From positions 1-40,840 of the forward strand of contig JARKOY010000089.1 of NCBI GenBank assembly GCA_029975555.1: DNA of 40,840 nucleotides. The letters are read 5' to 3'. A program made the position numbers and the translations under genes. This stretch comes from Spirochaetia bacterium (GTDB taxonomy: Bacteria; Spirochaetota; Spirochaetia; Treponematales; Rectinemataceae). The notes beneath the pieces were generated by a model. The model did no database searches. It had not been told where the DNA came from and saw only the letters and a list, made by a program, of their open reading frames with translations. Positions 29,942 through 40,840 of this stretch are shown here, piece by piece; within the stretch, counting starts at the first letter, position 1; each line of letters begins with the position of its first letter.

Positions 29942-30469
29942 GGGGGGGATTGAGGCCGAGACCTGGCACCAACGTTGGTCATGGCCGGGAGGACATGAGC
30001 CGTGGAGCAAACACATTCTTGCGCCGTGAAGAGGAGGTGGTATAATCAATCATATATAAATAATCAAGTTATGGAGGAAAGTAGATTGATTTCAGAGGGT
30101 TGTAATCTTTTCGTACATGAAGTTTAAGGTAGTCCAAGATTCATAATATGGGAATAACAATATTTGAAGAAAGCCATAATTTATGGAAAACATCAATACA
30201 ATGAGCGTTTTAGAACAACTTAACGCTCATACTCCTCGAAAGGGGAGGGATGATTCACATAAACTGAAATTGCATCTACTGGTGTCTGTGCTTATCTCTC
30301 TGGAAGAAGGCTCTGAAATTCTAGGCTACACACTGTGTTGCCACGACAACTATAAGGTTATTGGTAACCCATGAGTTAGAGAGAAATGTTCTGGAGGAGG
30401 AGAGGGGCGAAATGTTTTCGCTTCTGATAATAGCTGTAATGCGCTATTGCGCTATTGAGTGTAAATAGA
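29942..30469. other. AT-rich junction between the GC-rich chromosome and the cas operon
   Basis: This 528-base stretch holds the change in base composition, at about 30030. It includes a promoter candidate (30019-30046) and a weak 63-codon frame at 30183-30374 with no good ribosome binding site and no recognisable motif. A tandem repeat TGCGCTAT x2 lies at 30440-30455, just before cas3. I see no tRNA or integrase remnant that would mark an insertion site. Confidence 0.5.
30019..30046 (+). promoter_or_regulatory. Candidate promoter for the cas operon
   Basis: TTGCGC, a 16-base spacer and TATAAT with an upstream TG (TGGTATAAT) form a good extended promoter in the junction region. The cas3 start is about 420 bases further on, so a long leader or a second promoter must be assumed. 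The -10 region resembles that before the WYL regulator gene (27795-27803). Confidence 0.4.
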
Positions 30470-33217
30470 ATGCAACAAAAAAATAACATATACCAATATT
30501 GGGGTAAAGCTGATACAAAAGACCAAAAATCCATACACTATCATCCTTTGCCCTATCATTGTCTTGATGTTGCGGCGGTTATATATTTATTGCTTTATCA
30601 GCAGCACAGATATTGTACAGAATGGGCAAGACGTACAGGCTTATGCGAAGAGCAGATTAGCTGTTTAGTCGTATTAGCTTTCATGCTTCATGATATTGGG
30701 AAATTCTCAGTTACATTTCAATCTCTCAATCCTAAGCTTTTTACTATCCTTTTCCCTAACAAAAAACAAAAGGAATATATTAAACGACATGACACATTGG
30801 GCTTTCTTATATGGCGAGAAAAGATAAAACAATATATTGCTAGTCAAAATAAAGAGCTTTCTGATTTTCTAGATATAATAATCAAGTCGTCTTTAGGACA
30901 CCATGGCGTTCCTCCGGAAGAAGACGATAAAGGTGGAGCCCTACCTTTGAAGGTGAGTAGATTCTTTGATAAGGAAGATTGTGATGCTGTTTTAGAATTT
31001 GTTCAGCAATGTATTGTGTTTTTACAACCTCCTGAGTTGCCTCTAAACCCAAAATCCTTTAAAGACAAGCTAAAGGAGATCTCCTGGGAAATTGCGGGAG
31101 TTGGATTTCTTGCAGATTGGATAGGTTCAGATATTTCTTTTTTCCCTTACATGGAAAAAGTAGTTCCGCTTGAGAAGTACTGGAAAGATTATGCAATACC
31201 ACGTGCCATAAAAGCACTAGATCATATTCGGTGGACATCAACAAAATGCCGTCAATTTATTGGGATCAATACATTATTCCCATTTATCTCGGATCCGACA
31301 CCTTTGCAGGCTTGTGTCACGAGTATGGCGATTTTTCAAGGTCCGAAACTTTTTATAATTGAAGATGTAACTGGCTCTGGAAAAACAGAAGCTGCTGTTG
31401 TGCTTGCAGCACGGATGCTGGCAGAAGACAAAGCCGATGGCATTTATATTGCCTTACCTACTATGGCAACAGCGAATGCAATGTATAGCCGTATGAGCTC
31501 AGCTTATAGAAATTTATTTGCTATTGGAGAGCGGCCATCTTTGGTTTTGTCTCACGGTGCAAGGCACCTTTCAACCGATTTTACAGAATCAATTGTGATT
31601 AATAATCAAGAAGAGATAAGTGCAGCTTATTCAGATCATGAGACCACTGCCTCAGCAAACTGTAACTCTTGGTATGCTGATAATCGGAAAAAATCTCTCC
31701 TTGCCGATGTAGGTGTAGGGACTATAGACCAAATCCTTATGGCAGTATTGCCAGTACGGCATCAAGCCTTGCGCCTTGTAGGATTGCATAGGAAAATCAT
31801 AATTGTCGATGAAATACATGCTTATGATCCCTATATGTTACAGCTTTTAGGTGTTTTGCTTGAAGCTCATGCGAGAGCAGGTGGGTCAGCAATATTGTTA
31901 TCCGCAACGCTTCCTATAGATAAACGGGTTAGTTTAATCAAGCATTTCTATGCTGGGCTGTCTGAAAGTGATATAGATGTTACTACGTTACAGAAAACAG
32001 AATTCCCTCTTATTACCATGGTCAATAAGGCAGGGATAGAGTCATATCCTATAGCGACAAAGGATGAAGCAAAGCATAAGATTAATATTGCATTCTTCCA
32101 TTACTATGATAATGTTTTGCAATATATTAAAGCAAAATCTGATAGTGGATCATGTGTCTGTTGGATAAGAAATACCGTTGATGATACCCGTAAAGCATTT
32201 TTCGATTTAATAAAAATTGGGATCCCCTTGGATAAAATTGATCTTTTCCATAGTCGTTTTGCTATGGTGGACCGAGTGCAAATTGAAAATAGGACAATAG
32301 CCTATTTTGGAAAAAGATCAAGCTCAAAGGAACGGAATGGACGTGTTTTAGTCGCTAGTCAAGTAGTTGAGCAGTCTTTGGATCTTGATTTTGATGAATT
32401 AATCTCTGACCTTGCTCCTATTGATTTAATCATACAACGAGCTGGTCGATTACATCGCCATATTCGTTCAAAAAATGGAGATATTTTAGCTGATTCCTGT
32501 AACAGAGATGAACGACCAGATCCTATTCTTTATGTTTACGCACCTGAATTCGTTGAATCGGCAGATAAAACGTGGCTAAGCGGTGATTTTTCTGGTACTG
32601 CGGCCATATATACTGATAGAGGTAAACTGTGGAGGACGCAAAAAGTACTTATTGAAAAAAAGCATTGGATAATGCCTGATGATGCTAGATATCTGATTGA
32701 GTTTGTATATGGCGAGGAGAATAGTTACAACGTTCCCGAAGGACTAACTAAGTTTGTAGATGAAGCGGAAGGAATGAATCGTTCAAAGCAGGCTATGGGA
32801 GATTTGAATGCTTTAATATTGCGGAATGGTTACTGTCGCAATGCCGTTACTTTTGACCAATGGAATGAAGATGACCACATACCTACAAGGCTTACAGAAG
32901 AGAACACTGAAATAGTACTCGCAGTATATTTAAACAATGAACTACTTCCATATGCCCAAGTAGAAGATTACCCATGGGATTGGAGTAGTTTGTCAATATC
33001 AAAAAAACAATGGGACAAATGTAAATACCATTTACCGCCTGATTTAACAAATTTGATTGATGAGCTTAAGAAAAAAAATCATCGACTGTCTTATTCTAAT
33101 TTTGTCATTGTAGATGAACGTTCCGATTCTGCACATGCTTGTGGAAGACGAATATCAAAACTATATGATCCCCGACTTGGATGGGGAGATGATTTTCAGA
33201 AGGAGGAAACGCATTGA
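30470..33217 (+). CDS. cas3: CRISPR-associated helicase/nuclease Cas3 (type I-E)
   Basis: A 915-residue protein; ATG 30470 is preferred, though TTG 30455 is in frame and neither has a strong ribosome binding site. The N-terminal HD nuclease domain has HCLDVAAV, LHDIGKF (H74/D75) and LGHHGVPP. The SF2 helicase part has Walker A GSGKTEAA (from 302), DEIHAYD (from 447), LSATLP, the segment VVEQSLDLDFDELISDLAPID and QRAGRLHRH (from 656). A C-terminal domain completes the type I-E layout. Cas3 is recruited by Cascade to unwind and degrade target DNA. All catalytic motifs look intact. Its stop overlaps the casA start. Confidence 0.96.
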   Translation: MQQKNNIYQYWGKADTKDQKSIHYHPLPYHCLDVAAVIYLLLYQQHRYCTEWARRTGLCEEQISCLVVLAFMLHDIGKFSVTFQSLNPKLFTILFPNKKQKEYIKRHDTLGFLIWREKIKQYIASQNKELSDFLDIIIKSSLGHHGVPPEEDDKGGALPLKVSRFFDKEDCDAVLEFVQQCIVFLQPPELPLNPKSFKDKLKEISWEIAGVGFLADWIGSDISFFPYMEKVVPLEKYWKDYAIPRAIKALDHIRWTSTKCRQFIGINTLFPFISDPTPLQACVTSMAIFQGPKLFIIEDVTGSGKTEAAVVLAARMLAEDKADGIYIALPTMATANAMYSRMSSAYRNLFAIGERPSLVLSHGARHLSTDFTESIVINNQEEISAAYSDHETTASANCNSWYADNRKKSLLADVGVGTIDQILMAVLPVRHQALRLVGLHRKIIIVDEIHAYDPYMLQLLGVLLEAHARAGGSAILLSATLPIDKRVSLIKHFYAGLSESDIDVTTLQKTEFPLITMVNKAGIESYPIATKDEAKHKINIAFFHYYDNVLQYIKAKSDSGSCVCWIRNTVDDTRKAFFDLIKIGIPLDKIDLFHSRFAMVDRVQIENRTIAYFGKRSSSKERNGRVLVASQVVEQSLDLDFDELISDLAPIDLIIQRAGRLHRHIRSKNGDILADSCNRDERPDPILYVYAPEFVESADKTWLSGDFSGTAAIYTDRGKLWRTQKVLIEKKHWIMPDDARYLIEFVYGEENSYNVPEGLTKFVDEAEGMNRSKQAMGDLNALILRNGYCRNAVTFDQWNEDDHIPTRLTEENTEIVLAVYLNNELLPYAQVEDYPWDWSSLSISKKQWDKCKYHLPPDLTNLIDELKKKNHRLSYSNFVIVDERSDSAHACGRRISKLYDPRLGWGDDFQKEETH

Positions 33218-34782
33218 ATCTTATTAAGGATAAATGGATCCCAGCGAAACGGAAAGATCATACTATATCTAAAATTGCTCCTTGGGAAATTGGCGCTGAC
33301 AACAATCCAGTTGTGGAAATAAGTGCTCCTCGTCCAGATTTTCGTGGGGCACTTTACCAGTTTTTGATCGGTCTTCTACAGACAGCCTATGCTCCTCAAG
33401 ACGATGATGAATGGTTAGAGCACTGGGAAACTATTCCGTCTTGCAGTGAGCTTAAAAAAGCTTTCGAGAAGTATTCGGTTGCTTTTGAGCTGTATAATGA
33501 AAATGGACCTGCCTTTATGCAAGATTACGATATGCAAAAGGATTTTACAAAAAATAATAATGAAATTAAGTCTCTGCTAATTGATTCTCCTGGTGAGAAT
33601 ACTATTAAGCAGAATAAAGATCATTTCGTTAAAAGAAGTGTAATTACAAATCTTTGTGAATCTTGTACAGCGTCCGCTTTATTTACATTGCAGATAAATG
33701 CTCCATCAGGGGGACAAGGGCATAGAACTGGATTACGTGGCGGTGGGCCTATTACGACCCTAGTCATATCTAATACGGCTGATTCATTGTGGAAATTAAT
33801 CTGGCTCAATATTCTCTCCCTTGAATATAAGTTTGGTAAATGTCCCGATAAGGCAGATGATAAAGTATTCCCTTGGATGGGGCCTACACGTGATAGTAGA
33901 GCTGATAAAAAAGTCTACCCAATGGACGTAAATGAATTACAGCAATACTGGGGGATGCCTAGACGCATTCGACTTAATAAGCCATCTAAAAGTGGGATAT
34001 GTGATATTTGTGGCTCTTATGCTACCCAATTATATTCAAGTTATGTCGCACAAAATTATGGAGTCAGCTATAGCTCGACATGGACTCACTCGCTTAGTCC
34101 ATATCGATGGCAAATTGAAAAAGATAAAAGCACAAGCCTTATAGCAATCAAAGGCAAACAAGGAGGGATTAGTTATCATGATTGGCTTTCATTAACACTC
34201 ATTACCAATCCAAAGCAACAAGAGATTGCTGCAGTAGTTCGATCATTCAACTCGAGTAAACTATGGAAACTCAATGAATTTGATTTTTCAGTTTGGTGCT
34301 TTGGATATGATATGGACAATATGAAAGCCCGTTGTTGGTATGAGCAAAAGTTGCCACTGCTGGTAATTCCTGAAGAGAAAAAAGGTGAATATATAGAAAA
34401 AATACAACTTCTTACAGAAGCAACACAGGAATGTATAAAAGTATTACAAGAGGCTATTAAAGAGGCTTGGTCAAGCAATCCTTCACAGGGGGATTATTCG
34501 TTCATTGATAGAATATTTTATCAAGAGACAGAAACAGAATTTTTTGAAGTTGCCAACTCTATTCAAAAATGTCTTCTTAGTGGCAAAAGCCTTTGTAGGC
34601 ATTTATTGCATTGGCATTCCACACTGATTTCATTTTCTGAAAAAATATTTGATCAATTCGCATTGCAAGATACTGATGAAATACGGAACATGAAACGTAT
34701 CGCCCTTGCAGAAAAATCACTTATGAGTAAATTGCGAAGCAAAAATATGAAATCGATGCAGGCACTTAAGGAGTGTATATGA
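33214..34782 (+). CDS. casA: Cascade large subunit Cse1/CasA (Cas8e)
   Basis: A 522-residue protein starting at TTG 33214, overlapping the cas3 stop, with AAGGAGGAAA just before. The N-terminus MNLIKDKWIPAKRKDH is the family opening (usually NLLxxxWIPV). GALYQFLIGLLQTAY and the segment SGGQGHRTGLRGGGPITTLV, in the region of the L1 loop, also match. ICDICGSY near 265 may be a zinc-binding pair. The subunit recognises the PAM and recruits Cas3. Length agrees with E. coli CasA (502). Confidence 0.95.
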   Translation: MNLIKDKWIPAKRKDHTISKIAPWEIGADNNPVVEISAPRPDFRGALYQFLIGLLQTAYAPQDDDEWLEHWETIPSCSELKKAFEKYSVAFELYNENGPAFMQDYDMQKDFTKNNNEIKSLLIDSPGENTIKQNKDHFVKRSVITNLCESCTASALFTLQINAPSGGQGHRTGLRGGGPITTLVISNTADSLWKLIWLNILSLEYKFGKCPDKADDKVFPWMGPTRDSRADKKVYPMDVNELQQYWGMPRRIRLNKPSKSGICDICGSYATQLYSSYVAQNYGVSYSSTWTHSLSPYRWQIEKDKSTSLIAIKGKQGGISYHDWLSLTLITNPKQQEIAAVVRSFNSSKLWKLNEFDFSVWCFGYDMDNMKARCWYEQKLPLLVIPEEKKGEYIEKIQLLTEATQECIKVLQEAIKEAWSSNPSQGDYSFIDRIFYQETETEFFEVANSIQKCLLSGKSLCRHLLHWHSTLISFSEKIFDQFALQDTDEIRNMKRIALAEKSLMSKLRSKNMKSMQALKECI

Positions 34783-35306
34783 ATAATATCGTAGTTCTAT
34801 GTAATCCAGACGATCAAAAGCATCTCATGGAGTGGTGGAACACAATGCATAGCAACCGAGCTGTCAGAGCAGAGTTGCGTCGTGCCGAAAAGCCTGAAGC
34901 AGTTTTTTTAACTGAAGGTTTCCATATGCTTTGGCGAGAGTTTGTTGGCTCATATTGGGCTAAAGAAAAAAATTTGCTTGGTCTTGCTGCTGTTGCAGGC
35001 ATTTTGGCATATATAGATACAGATGGTAACCTTTCTTTTGCTTCTGCCTGTGCAACAGGAGCAGATGGTCCCCCTGTCAGTGAATTGCGATTTTCTCAAT
35101 TACAGAAAAGTCATTCGCTTGATGAATTCTACACTAGGATGAGGCGTATTCTGCATATACTGAAGAATAAGGCCAATATCATATCTGTTGCTGATGATGT
35201 TTTACATTGGTATGTAGAGACTTTACAAGGAGAAAAGGATAACAATCCTCGTAAGCATATTTTGGTGCGCTGGGGGATGGAATATTTCCAATCCCTTAAA
35301 ATATAG
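34779..35306 (+). CDS. casB: Cascade small subunit Cse2/CasB (Cas11)
   Basis: A 175-residue helical protein. ATG 34779 is chosen, five bases after AAGGAG and overlapping the casA stop; GTG 34773 is the alternative. The pattern LMEWWNTMHSNRAVRAELRRAEKPEAV near the start, then FSQLQKSHSLDEFYTRMRRILHIL, is typical of Cse2. Two copies line the belly of Cascade and stabilise the crRNA-target duplex. Position between casA and cas7 is canonical. Confidence 0.93.
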   Translation: MNNIVVLCNPDDQKHLMEWWNTMHSNRAVRAELRRAEKPEAVFLTEGFHMLWREFVGSYWAKEKNLLGLAAVAGILAYIDTDGNLSFASACATGADGPPVSELRFSQLQKSHSLDEFYTRMRRILHILKNKANIISVADDVLHWYVETLQGEKDNNPRKHILVRWGMEYFQSLKI

Positions 35307-35346
35307 GCAAAAAGCAGAGCAAAAATTAAAAGACAAGGAGAAGAAA

Positions 35347-36432
35347 ATGGATAAGTTTATTCAGCTTCACATCTTAACGTCATTTCCACCAGCTAATTTA
35401 AACCGCGATGATTTGGGAAGGCCCAAGACAGCAAAAATGGGTGGTGTAGATCGACTTAGGATATCGTCGCAAAGTCTGAAAAGAGCCTGGCGAACCTCCA
35501 CGGTTTTTCAAACAGCTTTAAGCGGACATATCGGTGATCGGACGAAAAATCTTGGGCATAGAGTATATAATAAATTTGTTGAAAAAGGCATAGAGGAACA
35601 AAAGGCAAAAGAATGGGCTCAAAAAATAGCAGGCTGTTTTGGAAAACTGAAATCTGCAGATCCCAAGAATGCCAGCGCACATAAAGAGCTCGAAATTGAA
35701 CAACTAGCTCATATCTCACCAGAAGAATGGGATGCTGTATATAAGCTTTGTGATACTCTTATATCGCAAAAGAGGCCTCCTAAAGATGATGAACTCAATC
35801 TTTTACGTATCCCGGAAAGTGCAGCAGACATAGCACTTTTTGGTCGTATGCTTACAAAAGATACATTGAATAGAAATATAACAAAGTATGGACAAGAAGC
35901 TTCTTGCCAAGTTGCCCATGCTATTAGTGTTCATCCAGTCGTTATTGAAGATGATTATTTTACTGCAGTGGACGATTTGAATACTGGGGAAGAAGATGTT
36001 GGTGCTGGCCATATTGACGAAGCCGGTTTTGCATCTGCACTTTTTTATATTTATGTATGCATTGATCGAGAACAGCTGGTCGAAAATCTTGGTGGCAATA
36101 CTGAGCTTGCAAATAAGACCCTGGGTGCTTTACTGGAGGCAGCTCTTACAGTGAGCCCTACAGGCAAACAGAATAGTTTTGCCAGTCGAGCGTATGCATC
36201 GTATGTCCTTGTTGAAAAAGGTTCCATTCAGCCTCGTTCCCTTTCTGTAGCATTTCTGAAACCTATTCGTGGAGAGAACTACGGCGAAGACGCCTATAAA
36301 GCTCTTGAGAATACCTATAAACGAATAGATGAAGCATATGAAATAGATGCGAAAACCATAAAAAGGCGAATCCTTAATGCATTCACAGGGGAAGGCAAAT
36401 TATCAGAGTTGGTCAAGTTTATACAGGAGTAA
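35347..36432 (+). CDS. cas7: Cascade backbone subunit Cas7e (CasC/Cse4)
   Basis: A 361-residue protein starting at ATG 35347 behind ACAAGGAG. The first 50 residues (FIQLHILTSFPPANLNRDDLGRPKTAKMGG, then RLRISSQSLKRAWRTS) are the family signature. SPTGKQNSFASRAYASYVLVEKG near 275 is also conserved. Six copies form the crRNA-binding backbone. Length agrees with E. coli CasC (363). Confidence 0.96.
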   Translation: MDKFIQLHILTSFPPANLNRDDLGRPKTAKMGGVDRLRISSQSLKRAWRTSTVFQTALSGHIGDRTKNLGHRVYNKFVEKGIEEQKAKEWAQKIAGCFGKLKSADPKNASAHKELEIEQLAHISPEEWDAVYKLCDTLISQKRPPKDDELNLLRIPESAADIALFGRMLTKDTLNRNITKYGQEASCQVAHAISVHPVVIEDDYFTAVDDLNTGEEDVGAGHIDEAGFASALFYIYVCIDREQLVENLGGNTELANKTLGALLEAALTVSPTGKQNSFASRAYASYVLVEKGSIQPRSLSVAFLKPIRGENYGEDAYKALENTYKRIDEAYEIDAKTIKRRILNAFTGEGKLSELVKFIQE

Positions 36433-36435
36433 TCA

Positions 36436-37179
36436 ATGGCTCAATATCTTGTCTTCCGTCTCTATGGACCTATGGCTTCATGGGGGGAGATCGCAGTTGG
36501 AGAAGTTCGTCATAGTTCTTCGTATCCAGGACGATCATCAATACTAGGTATTATTTCGGCTGCTCTTGGGATCAGGCGTACAGAGAAAGAAAAGCTAACA
36601 GCGTTGTTTGACGGTTATGATATCTGCATTAAAAACGTTTATCCAGGATATCTTCTTAGAGACTATCATACTATCCAAGTACCTGATTCTCTATGCAAAA
36701 TGATATTTGCAACCCGTAGGGATGAGTTGTTATGCGAGAAAGATCGTCTAGGGACAATTCTTTCTACAAGAGAATACCGCTGCGATTCCCTCAATATTGT
36801 ATCGATAAGAGAACGGGTTCAATCGCCGTATTCTCTAGAGGAAATTCAAGAGAAGCTCATTTATCCTACATTTGTATTGTATTTAGGGAGGAAAAGTTGT
36901 CCTCTTTCTATTCCATTAAATCCACAACTCATTTCTGCTAAAGGTTTTAAAGACTCTTTCGATAGAGCCATTTTCCCTCCTATTATCACCACACAAGATG
37001 GGAAAGACGAAACAGAGTGGTTCTTTCAAAAAATCAGAGCCAGATACTATTGGGATGGTGATGCCTTTGATATGCAGGCTCAGCAGGTCCATGAGCGCTA
37101 TGATCAACCTGTTGATCGAGAGAGATGGCAATTCGCTCCCCGACAGGAAAATTACTTTTCAGACAAGGAGTCAGGATAA
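36436..37179 (+). CDS. cas5: Cascade subunit Cas5e (CasD)
   Basis: A 247-residue RAMP protein starting at ATG 36436, four bases after cas7, with CAGGAG upstream. The N-terminus YLVFRLYGPMASWGEIAVGEVRHSSSYPGRSSILGIISAALGIRR matches the family (L..PLASWG.......R....PSKSALLGLLAAALGI). FVLYLGRKSCPLSIPLNPQL is the second conserved block. Cas5e caps the 5' handle of the crRNA. Its stop overlaps the cas6e start by one base. Confidence 0.95.
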   Translation: MAQYLVFRLYGPMASWGEIAVGEVRHSSSYPGRSSILGIISAALGIRRTEKEKLTALFDGYDICIKNVYPGYLLRDYHTIQVPDSLCKMIFATRRDELLCEKDRLGTILSTREYRCDSLNIVSIRERVQSPYSLEEIQEKLIYPTFVLYLGRKSCPLSIPLNPQLISAKGFKDSFDRAIFPPIITTQDGKDETEWFFQKIRARYYWDGDAFDMQAQQVHERYDQPVDRERWQFAPRQENYFSDKESG

Positions 37180-37880
37180 TGTATTTTTCTCGTATCCGAA
37201 TTAACCCAGAAACTTGTATGAATTACAAGATACTGAGACTTTTTCAAGGGAATATGTATTCTGTTCATCAATTAATTTGGCAACTATTCTCTAATCAACC
37301 AGCTACAAAGAGGGATTTTTTATTTCGACAAGAATACGAATATAAGCAGCTAGAAACTCCAAGAGGTCCCAAAGGAATTCCTATCTTTTATGTTGTATCT
37401 GAGAGGCAACCACTGTCTTTCACAGATGAACTCATTGTCGATGTAAAAGACTATAATCCCAAAATAACATGTGGAATGGAGTTTGATTTTAAAGTTCGGG
37501 TTAATCCTGTCATTGCCCGCTTGATTTCTGGGAAAAATCATTCATCAAAGCATGATGTATTGATGGAGACAAAACGATTGGCAAAACAACAAGGCATTAC
37601 TGATAAGTCTATAATACGGACGATGATGAATAATGCTGTAATCAAGTGGTTCATAGAAAAAGGGGATCGGTTTGGTTATACTATAAAAAGCCCCATTGAG
37701 GTGTCCTCTTATCTCCAGCACAGAATTAGTAAAAAGAACGCCCAAATTCAATTTAGCTCTGTAGATTTGTCCGGGGTACTTGAAGTAATAGAACCGACCT
37801 CGTTTCTTGAACTTTTATCCAAAGGTATTGGACATTCGCGTTCCTTTGGCTGTGGCATGATGATGATAAAAAGGCGTTAA
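37179..37880 (+). CDS. cas6e: crRNA-processing endoribonuclease Cas6e (CasE)
   Basis: A 233-residue protein starting at ATG 37179 (TAATG overlap with cas5), AAGGAG at 37165-37170. MYFSRIRINPET, then YSVHQLIWQLFSNQPATKRDFLFRQE is typical of Cas6e, including the histidine of VHQLIW that sits at the catalytic position in characterised members. The glycine-rich end GIGHSRSFGCGMMMIKRR is the RNA-binding loop. It cuts the repeat hairpin of the precursor RNA; the repeats here have the expected stable stem. Confidence 0.94.
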   Translation: MYFSRIRINPETCMNYKILRLFQGNMYSVHQLIWQLFSNQPATKRDFLFRQEYEYKQLETPRGPKGIPIFYVVSERQPLSFTDELIVDVKDYNPKITCGMEFDFKVRVNPVIARLISGKNHSSKHDVLMETKRLAKQQGITDKSIIRTMMNNAVIKWFIEKGDRFGYTIKSPIEVSSYLQHRISKKNAQIQFSSVDLSGVLEVIEPTSFLELLSKGIGHSRSFGCGMMMIKRR

Positions 37881-37884
37881 AACC

Positions 37885-39190
<1,306 letters not shown>

Positions 39191-40840
39191 ATGTTCCCCG
39201 CGCATGCGGGGATAAACCGACAAGATAAGGAAAGACTATGGATGCGAAGCAATGTTCCCCGCGCATGCGGGGATAAACCTTCAACTATTCGCTTGGTTAC
39301 AACGAGGCAAACATGTTCCCCGCGCATGCGGGGATAAACCGTCATCATAGAGGACGGTATTCTGTCCGCCAGAATGTTCCCCGCGCATGCGGGGATAAAC
39401 CGCCAATATCGGAGCTTTTTCAGGCTGTGCATGAATGTTCCCCGCGCATGCGGGGATAAACCGAATTCTTTTGCGCGCTCCGGCGTGATGCCTAACATGT
39501 TCCCCGCGCATGCGGGGATAAACCGTATTGCGGTTGTTACCAGCGCAATGGCAGTGCATGTTCCCCGCGCATGCGGGGATAAACCGTGTGCCGATATAGG
39601 CCATATCGGCAGATCGACATGTTCCCCGCGCATGCGGGGATAAACCGGATAGACAGCAGTGGGCTTTCCGTCGGCAGATATGTTCCCCGCGCATGCGGGG
39701 ATAAACCGATAACCCGCGCGGCAGTCAATCTGTCCAACGTATGTTCCCCGCGCATGCGGGGATAAACCGTCATGCGGCAACCTACGAGACAGGTGCACGT
39801 GATGTTCCCCGCGCATGCGGGGATAAACCGCTGGCCGAGCAGGACTGCCAGCGCCATGACGGATGTTCCCCGCGCATGCGGGGATAAACCGCATCGCTTT
39901 TACATCCCGGCAGCCGCGGTCGAATGTTCCCCGCGCATGCGGGGATAAACCGATTGAGTCTGAAAATGCGCCCAAAGAGGCGGAGATGTTCCCCGCGCAT
40001 GCGGGGATAAACCGATGTGGTGTGAAAAACACAAAATTGAGTACGAATGTTCCCCGCGCATGCGGGGATAAACCGTATGACCATGAGCCTGGTAACGCTG
40101 GCTATAAATGTTCCCCGCGCATGCGGGGATAAACCGCTTGCCATGCACAATGGTGCGGGAGACGAAAAATGTTCCCCGCGCATGCGGGGATAAACCGTTT
40201 CCCTGCCGTGCCGGAGTAGGTCCCATTGAATGTTCCCCGCGCATGCGGGGATAAACCGGTTCTTGTTAGCGAAATACAAACATTTGATAAATGTTCCCCG
40301 CGCATGCGGGGATAAACCTATTCCGCGCCGCTGCGTCCGAGGGTATAGCGCATGTTCCCCGCGCATGCGGGGATAAACCGTATGAGAATGGCAAGGAGTA
40401 TGATGTTGACGAATGTTCCCCGCGCATGCGGGGATAAACCGCTCAAGCTCATCAGCGAGTGTCATCTGCAACGATGTTCCCCGCGCATGCGGGGATAAAC
40501 CGCTCGTCGAATTGTACCCAGTTCGACGCTGCGTATGTTCCCCGCGCATGCGGGGATAAACCGACTCCTGTAGATGTTACAACATATTTGACGCTATGTT
40601 CCCCGCGCATGCGGGGATAAACCGTCCTCGTTATACCTGCCGGCAAAGACCTCCTCATGGTCCCCGCGCATGCGGGGATAAACCGTATGACCATGAGCCG
40701 GGTAACGCTGGCTATAAATGTTCCCCGCGCATGCGGGGATAAACCGTAACGAACGTTGTCGGGTCTTGACCGGGGAGCATGTTCCCCGCGCATGCGGGGA
40801 TAAACCGTTTTGGCGCACCAGCAGCCGCACAGGCAACGTA
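39191..40840 (+). CRISPR. Type I-E CRISPR array, 27 repeats in view, continues beyond the window
   Basis: Repeats are 29 bases. Each begins ATGTT and ends GATAAACCG, and has the stem CCCCGC-GCAT-GCGGGG, close to the E. coli type I-E repeat. Starts fall every 61 bases from 39191 to 40779, except two steps of 62 where spacers 5 (39464-39496) and 13 (39953-39985) are 33 bases; the other spacers are 32. Three repeats vary: numbers 2 (39252) and 19 (40291) end in T, and number 25 (40657) has G for T at position 4. The last complete spacer ends at 40839. Spacers 15 (40076-40107) and 25 (40686-40717) are identical except for one base. Both strands of the array stay open for long stretches, but no protein is encoded. 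Confidence 0.99.

Follow-up and report, generated by a model that had tools for sequence, protein, structure and literature searches.

A near-identical spacer pair in a type I-E CRISPR array of a Spirochaetia bacterium and its target in a tailed-phage family

In a type I-E CRISPR array from a Spirochaetia bacterium, spacers 15 and 25 are identical at 31 of 32 bases, and a matching site preceded by AAG is present in a tailed phage. We regard independent capture of one protospacer as the probable origin of the pair, albeit with considerable reservation, and as better supported than duplication within the array or an artefact; this weighing is a matter of judgement. Whether such spacers are copies or traces of separate encounters alters the reading of arrays as infection histories. 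The pair itself is an ordinary example of a known phenomenon, the repeated spacer, and is informative through its phage target and the control arrays.

The array and the spacer pair

The window, i.e., the whole stretch of 40,840 nucleotides that was analysed, is contig C166 from a draft genome of 3.27 Mb in 179 contigs, with an estimated contamination of the bin of 2.41%. The complete type I-E gene content, including cas1e and cas2e, was found in a single operon by matches to NCBIfam models; for Cas3 and Cse1, one of two whole-length models each (PRK09694 and PRK09693) stayed below its cut-off, and other models scored above theirs. The array likewise conforms to type I-E, with 27 repeats of 29 bp and 32-nt spacers (range 32–33 nt) forming units of 61 bp, with a few of 60 or 62. 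The features of the locus and of the pair are as follows:

30455..39172, + strand: type I-E operon cas3, cse1, cse2, cas7, cas5, cas6e, cas1, cas2
39191..40840, + strand: type I-E CRISPR array, running to the end of C166 and cut there
40076..40107, + strand: spacer 15, leader-nearer copy, T at 40090; three mismatches to phage contig L105, PAM AAG
40657..40685, + strand: repeat 25, T>G at 40660 (ATGG versus ATGT in the other repeats)
40686..40717, + strand: spacer 25, leader-farther copy, G at 40700 as in the phage; two mismatches to L105, PAM AAG

The only difference between the two spacers is at position 15, and their neighbours are unrelated to each other. Repeat 25 is the single mismatched copy among 61 genome copies of the 28-base repeat core, and repeat 15 is free of its T>G change. 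These observations confirm the preliminary description, which had reported the one-base T/G difference, the unrelated neighbours and the altered repeat. Within 30 genomes of the family, including this one, the pair was found only as the two array copies.

Another contig of the same genome, C31, ends within an array piece of 34 repeats whose repeat is identical to that of C166, and we infer that it is probably the leader-far continuation of the C166 array. When the 61 spacers on the two contigs were compared with one another on both strands, three pairs only had 12 or fewer differences, namely 15/25, B0/B1 and B14/B30, so chance similarity of 15 and 25 was rejected. The other two pairs lie on C31, outside the window: B0 and B1 are identical and adjacent at the contig edge; B14 and B30, also identical, are separated by 16 units and surrounded by unrelated neighbours. 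The B14/B30 spacer contains a short inverted repeat (ATCGCC/GGCGAT). A search for targets of B0/B1 and B14/B30 returned none in viral contigs and only the array copies in their own genome.

Several other features of the locus were recorded. The cas2 frame (38774–39190 region) codes for 132 amino acids, with the Cas2e profile spanning residues 2–87; it stops 18 bases 5' of the first repeat, and the leader seems to overlap its end. On the minus strand of C31, a lone 32-base sequence (32968–32999), which we take to resemble a type I-C repeat, lies 24 bases past the last I-E repeat and is present as a single copy in the genome with up to three mismatches allowed. A second I-E cas1, GC-rich and 64% identical, is found on contig C97 (17794–18684), accompanied by a separate array built on a different repeat; this contig may be a contaminant of the bin. 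The array repeat was not found in nine other genomes of the genus, nor Cas1 in 29 other genomes of the family (one genome per species in each case).

The phage target and repeated sampling of one phage family

A pattern derived from the spacer core identified a single contig among the IMG/VR viral contigs, IMGVR_UViG_3300002219_000028 (L104, or L105 when reversed). The protospacer at L104 2756–2787 has an AAG PAM and a G at position 15, and differs from both spacers at two further positions, both silent. Because the phage carries G, spacer 25 is the unaltered form and spacer 15 holds the unusual base; a common origin of the base in spacer 25 and the T>G change in repeat 25 was rejected accordingly. 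Self-targeting was also rejected, as the genome contains no further copy within three mismatches, and so was capture from the array itself, where the spacer is preceded by CCG and not by AAG, as read from the sequence.

The protospacer is located inside a gene of 146 amino acids, which in the related contig L106 (IMGVR_UViG_3300033233_000189) lies among the genes for a head-tail adaptor, one unassigned protein and a minor tail protein. The Arg in the target frame SMTMS-R-VTLAIT would become Leu with the T of spacer 15, a change at codon position 2. The corresponding protein of L106 is 93% identical and keeps the Arg (codon CGC), with a site too divergent to count as a match of the pair spacers. 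The distant L109 protein (48% identical) aligns an Asn at this position, beside a gap, and L108 stops short of the site. Of 67 coding differences between the phages and the spacers, only 6 fell on codon position 2; these counts exclude spacer 15, set aside seven differences outside the listed genes, and are not independent, as three relatives were pooled. An earlier argument that the T/G difference is silent in the frame YDHEPGNAGY was dropped since the actual target uses a different frame, and degenerate patterns for that alternative frame found nothing in the viral contigs.

No phage with T at position 15 was detected, as a codon-free pattern applied to the viral contigs recovered only L104 and L106. 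The suggestion in the preliminary description that two variants of one phage had been sampled, and the search it proposed for targets with either base, were thus borne out for the G variant with its AAG PAM and not for the T variant. A blastn search with the spacer gave weak partial matches in two phage records (best E 0.9, 21/32 bases) and weak matches in six plasmid records (best E 0.7), a query of 60 spacers joined by N had no match among phages at E 5, and the spacer core had none in the genome contigs. The protein encoded by the target gene was found neither in isolate phages nor in the family genomes, the latter in a search run without a positive control. Its portal neighbour matched 610 phage records, every one at less than 60% identity. 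The closest Cas1 among the genome contigs searched is that of Treponema sp. UBA4873 (82%). The spacers link an uncultured host to a tailed-phage family that we found only in metagenome-derived contigs.

The pair is part of a larger set of spacers matching this family. Comparison with L105, L106, L108 and L116 assigned 12 of the 27 window spacers to it at five or fewer mismatches and 13 at eight or fewer, with best-match mismatches of 0, 1, 1, 2, 2, 2, 2, 2, 3, 5, 5, 5 and 8 if both pair copies are included. Apart from spacers 15 and 25, these are:

39526..39557, + strand: spacer 6, five mismatches, PAM GAG, L106
39709..39740, + strand: spacer 9, two mismatches, PAM AAG on L106 and AGG on L105
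39831..39862, + strand: spacer 11, one mismatch, PAM AAG, L108
39892..39923, + strand: spacer 12, two mismatches, PAM AAG, L108
39953..39985, + strand: spacer 13, exact, PAM AAG, L105
40137..40168, + strand: spacer 16, two mismatches, PAM AAG, L108
40198..40229, + strand: spacer 17, five mismatches, PAM AAG, L105
40320..40351, + strand: spacer 19, five mismatches, PAM CAT, L106
40381..40412, + strand: spacer 20, two mismatches, PAM AAG, L106
40625..40656, + strand: spacer 24, one mismatch, PAM AAA, L105
40808..40839, + strand: spacer 27, eight mismatches, PAM AAG, L105; borderline

The other 14 window spacers had at least 12 mismatches, and none of the 34 spacers of C31 matched the family (all at 11 or more), a contrast between the two contigs with a Fisher p of 1e-5 at five mismatches and 3e-6 at eight. 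Shuffled spacers (1220) gave 10–15 mismatches. As a mapping control, we used 2114 spacers of 30–34 nt from other genomes, taken from all 65 arrays that were detected at 57 of 80 loci. Four of these spacers reached exactly eight mismatches on five contigs; because of them, we treat the match of spacer 27 as borderline. Of the 13 matching spacers, 10 have the AAG PAM expected for type I-E on one or more of the phage contigs, the exceptions being spacers 6, 19 and 24. Five of the matching spacers (16, 17, 19, 20 and 24) lie between the two copies of the pair.

Separate captures or copies

Independent capture had been put forward as the better explanation in the preliminary description, and the data support this in part. 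Speaking for it are the AAG-flanked target with G, the 12 of 27 spacers matching one phage family (13 with the borderline match), five of them between the copies, and the behaviour of repeated spacers in other arrays. As a control, we analysed 2032 spacers in 61 I-E arrays that lie close to other relatives of Cas1. Four entries were omitted: L069 (at 0) and L084 (at 15415) have a different type of repeat, L075 (at 16297) is a false array, and L092 (at 12907) is a duplicate entry. The control contained 31 near pairs, spread over ten arrays. All 11 tandem (5) or block (6) pairs were exact, whereas 12 of the 20 lone pairs differed by 1–5 bases or by a shift and eight were exact; seven of the 12 came from a single array, L024, in three clusters. 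With the pairs of this genome added, the contrast had a p of 0.0006 by pairs and of 0.023 by clusters, which were counted by hand. We favour independent capture because tandem and block duplications in the control stay exact and lone pairs often differ, and this observation suggests a way to tell a copy from a capture.

Since one phage lineage was sampled repeatedly, a double capture at one site is unsurprising. We simulated 12–14 draws from the 524 AAG sites of L106 (17.2 kb), and the probability of hitting one site twice was 0.12–0.16 with uniform draws and 0.16, 0.32 and 0.60 with log-normal site strengths of sigma 0.5, 1 and 1.5. Published data on E. coli plasmids attribute about 70% of spacers to the hottest quarter of sites and about 10% to the coldest half (PMC6282206); this split gave 0.24–0.28 for 12–13 draws. 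For an assumed phage of 40 kb and 27 draws, the value was 0.46. Features of the spacers themselves were given no weight as proof of a hot site: an AA end occurs in both copies and in 6 of the 61 spacers, an inner AAG is absent from both copies and from 22 of the 27 window spacers, and the literature, as represented in PMC6282206, is divided on the AA motif.

If independent capture is correct, the type I-E system would have encountered one tailed-phage lineage repeatedly and drawn a large number of spacers from it, with primed or interference-driven acquisition as the probable mode. The AAG-flanked site in the small head/tail-module gene would have been captured first as spacer 25. Several more spacers against this phage family would have followed, and spacer 15 would have been taken later from a phage copy with a G to T change. 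For a type I-F system, it was reported that freshly acquired spacers direct where, and on which strand, subsequent ones are taken (PMC5059440), which fits the many spacers from one phage. Against independent capture stand the missing T phage, the exchange of an Arg that L105 and L106 both retain, the scarcity of spacer–phage differences at codon position 2, and the fact that both silent differences from L105 are common to the two copies, with no silent difference between them; the Asn aligned in L109 tempers the argument from the Arg. The origin of seven of the 12 differing control pairs in the single array L024 also counts against it. Moreover, a published reconstruction assigns most repeated spacers to duplication (PMC11472070).

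A duplication within the array followed by mutation is the less likely but still serious alternative. The site would have been captured once with G, the unit copied by replication misalignment or recombination between repeats, and spacer 15 changed from G to T. The preliminary description had argued that a block duplication would have copied the neighbours too; this does not refute copying, because a tandem copy of units 15–24 with later loss of nine units gives the same pattern. The adjacent and the distant exact pairs on C31, the latter with unrelated neighbours, point in the same direction, as do the eight exact lone pairs of the control and the nature of the sole 15/25 difference, a replacement at codon position 2. 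In the reconstruction, which used SpacerPlacer, 805 candidates for repeated spacers were resolved into 695 duplications, 43 rearrangements, 8 reacquisitions, 7 independent insertions and 52 others; according to its own text, the settings discourage repeated insertion (PMC11472070). A review also favours duplication, stating that a second encounter could conceivably yield the same spacer twice and that identical series are unlikely to arise in this way (PMC8047081). However, the copies are not identical, and none of the tandem or block control pairs differ. Internal control repeats had 27 substitutions in 51,296 nt, and at this rate a one-base difference is expected in only about 3% of copied pairs, although the rate may be too low for spacers if selection or recombination keeps repeats alike. 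Pairs with one mismatch were seen four times against 0.7 expected from 21 exact pairs (p = 0.006). Copying would further require two array events plus a mutation. The two units share neither neighbours nor the variant of repeat 25, but both could have been erased by a subsequent deletion or by exchange inside the repeat.

We consider it quite improbable that the pair is an artefact, either of an assembly error or strain mixture, with no single cell containing both units as written, or of one wrong base near the contig end. The number of contigs and the estimated contamination of the bin would allow for it, and the I-E locus on C97 may have been binned from a foreign genome. In addition, C166 and C31 both break off within the array, in the case of C31 at the B0/B1 duplicate, and no more than 190 bases separate unit 25 from the contig end. 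Yet the copy nearest to that end has the base of the phage, and units 15 to 25 are all 61 bp with no mark of a join in the contig sequence.

Regarding function, both crRNAs would probably guide Cascade to one site and be redundant, because position 15 is outside the seed, which in E. coli comprises positions 1–5 and 7–8 (PMC5904413). A run of mismatches at positions 7–20 abolished binding there (PMC5904413), and a single mismatch at position 15 should have a small effect. The probable redundancy speaks against spacer 15 as a needed update after escape, and we find it hard to credit that the phage altered its site under pressure from spacer 25 and that the imperfect older crRNA primed the capture of spacer 15; if true, the pair would be a fossil of phage escape and host counter-move.

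Comparison with known systems

Duplicated spacer-repeat units as described in PMC11472070 and PMC8047081 resemble the present case in that a spacer occurs twice in an array with unlike neighbours, and the C31 pairs fit this description. The pair 15/25 departs from it in its one-base difference, and a copying step is not seen in any sister array. The hot prespacers of type I-E primed adaptation (PMC6282206) share the AAG PAM with our system, and the uneven use of sites makes a double capture possible; those data come from plasmids in engineered E. coli, with short times and many cells, whereas here the history of one natural array is inferred. A natural counterpart is the array of Treponema sp. 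UBA4873 (L024, from about 11288), in whose 126 spacers the clusters 20/22, 40/45/55 and 43/48/50 cover shared sequence with differences or shifts. Spacers 43/48/50 and 40/45/55 parallel the pair described here, but several of the UBA4873 pairs differ at four or five positions or by a two-base shift, so that recapture is plainer there.
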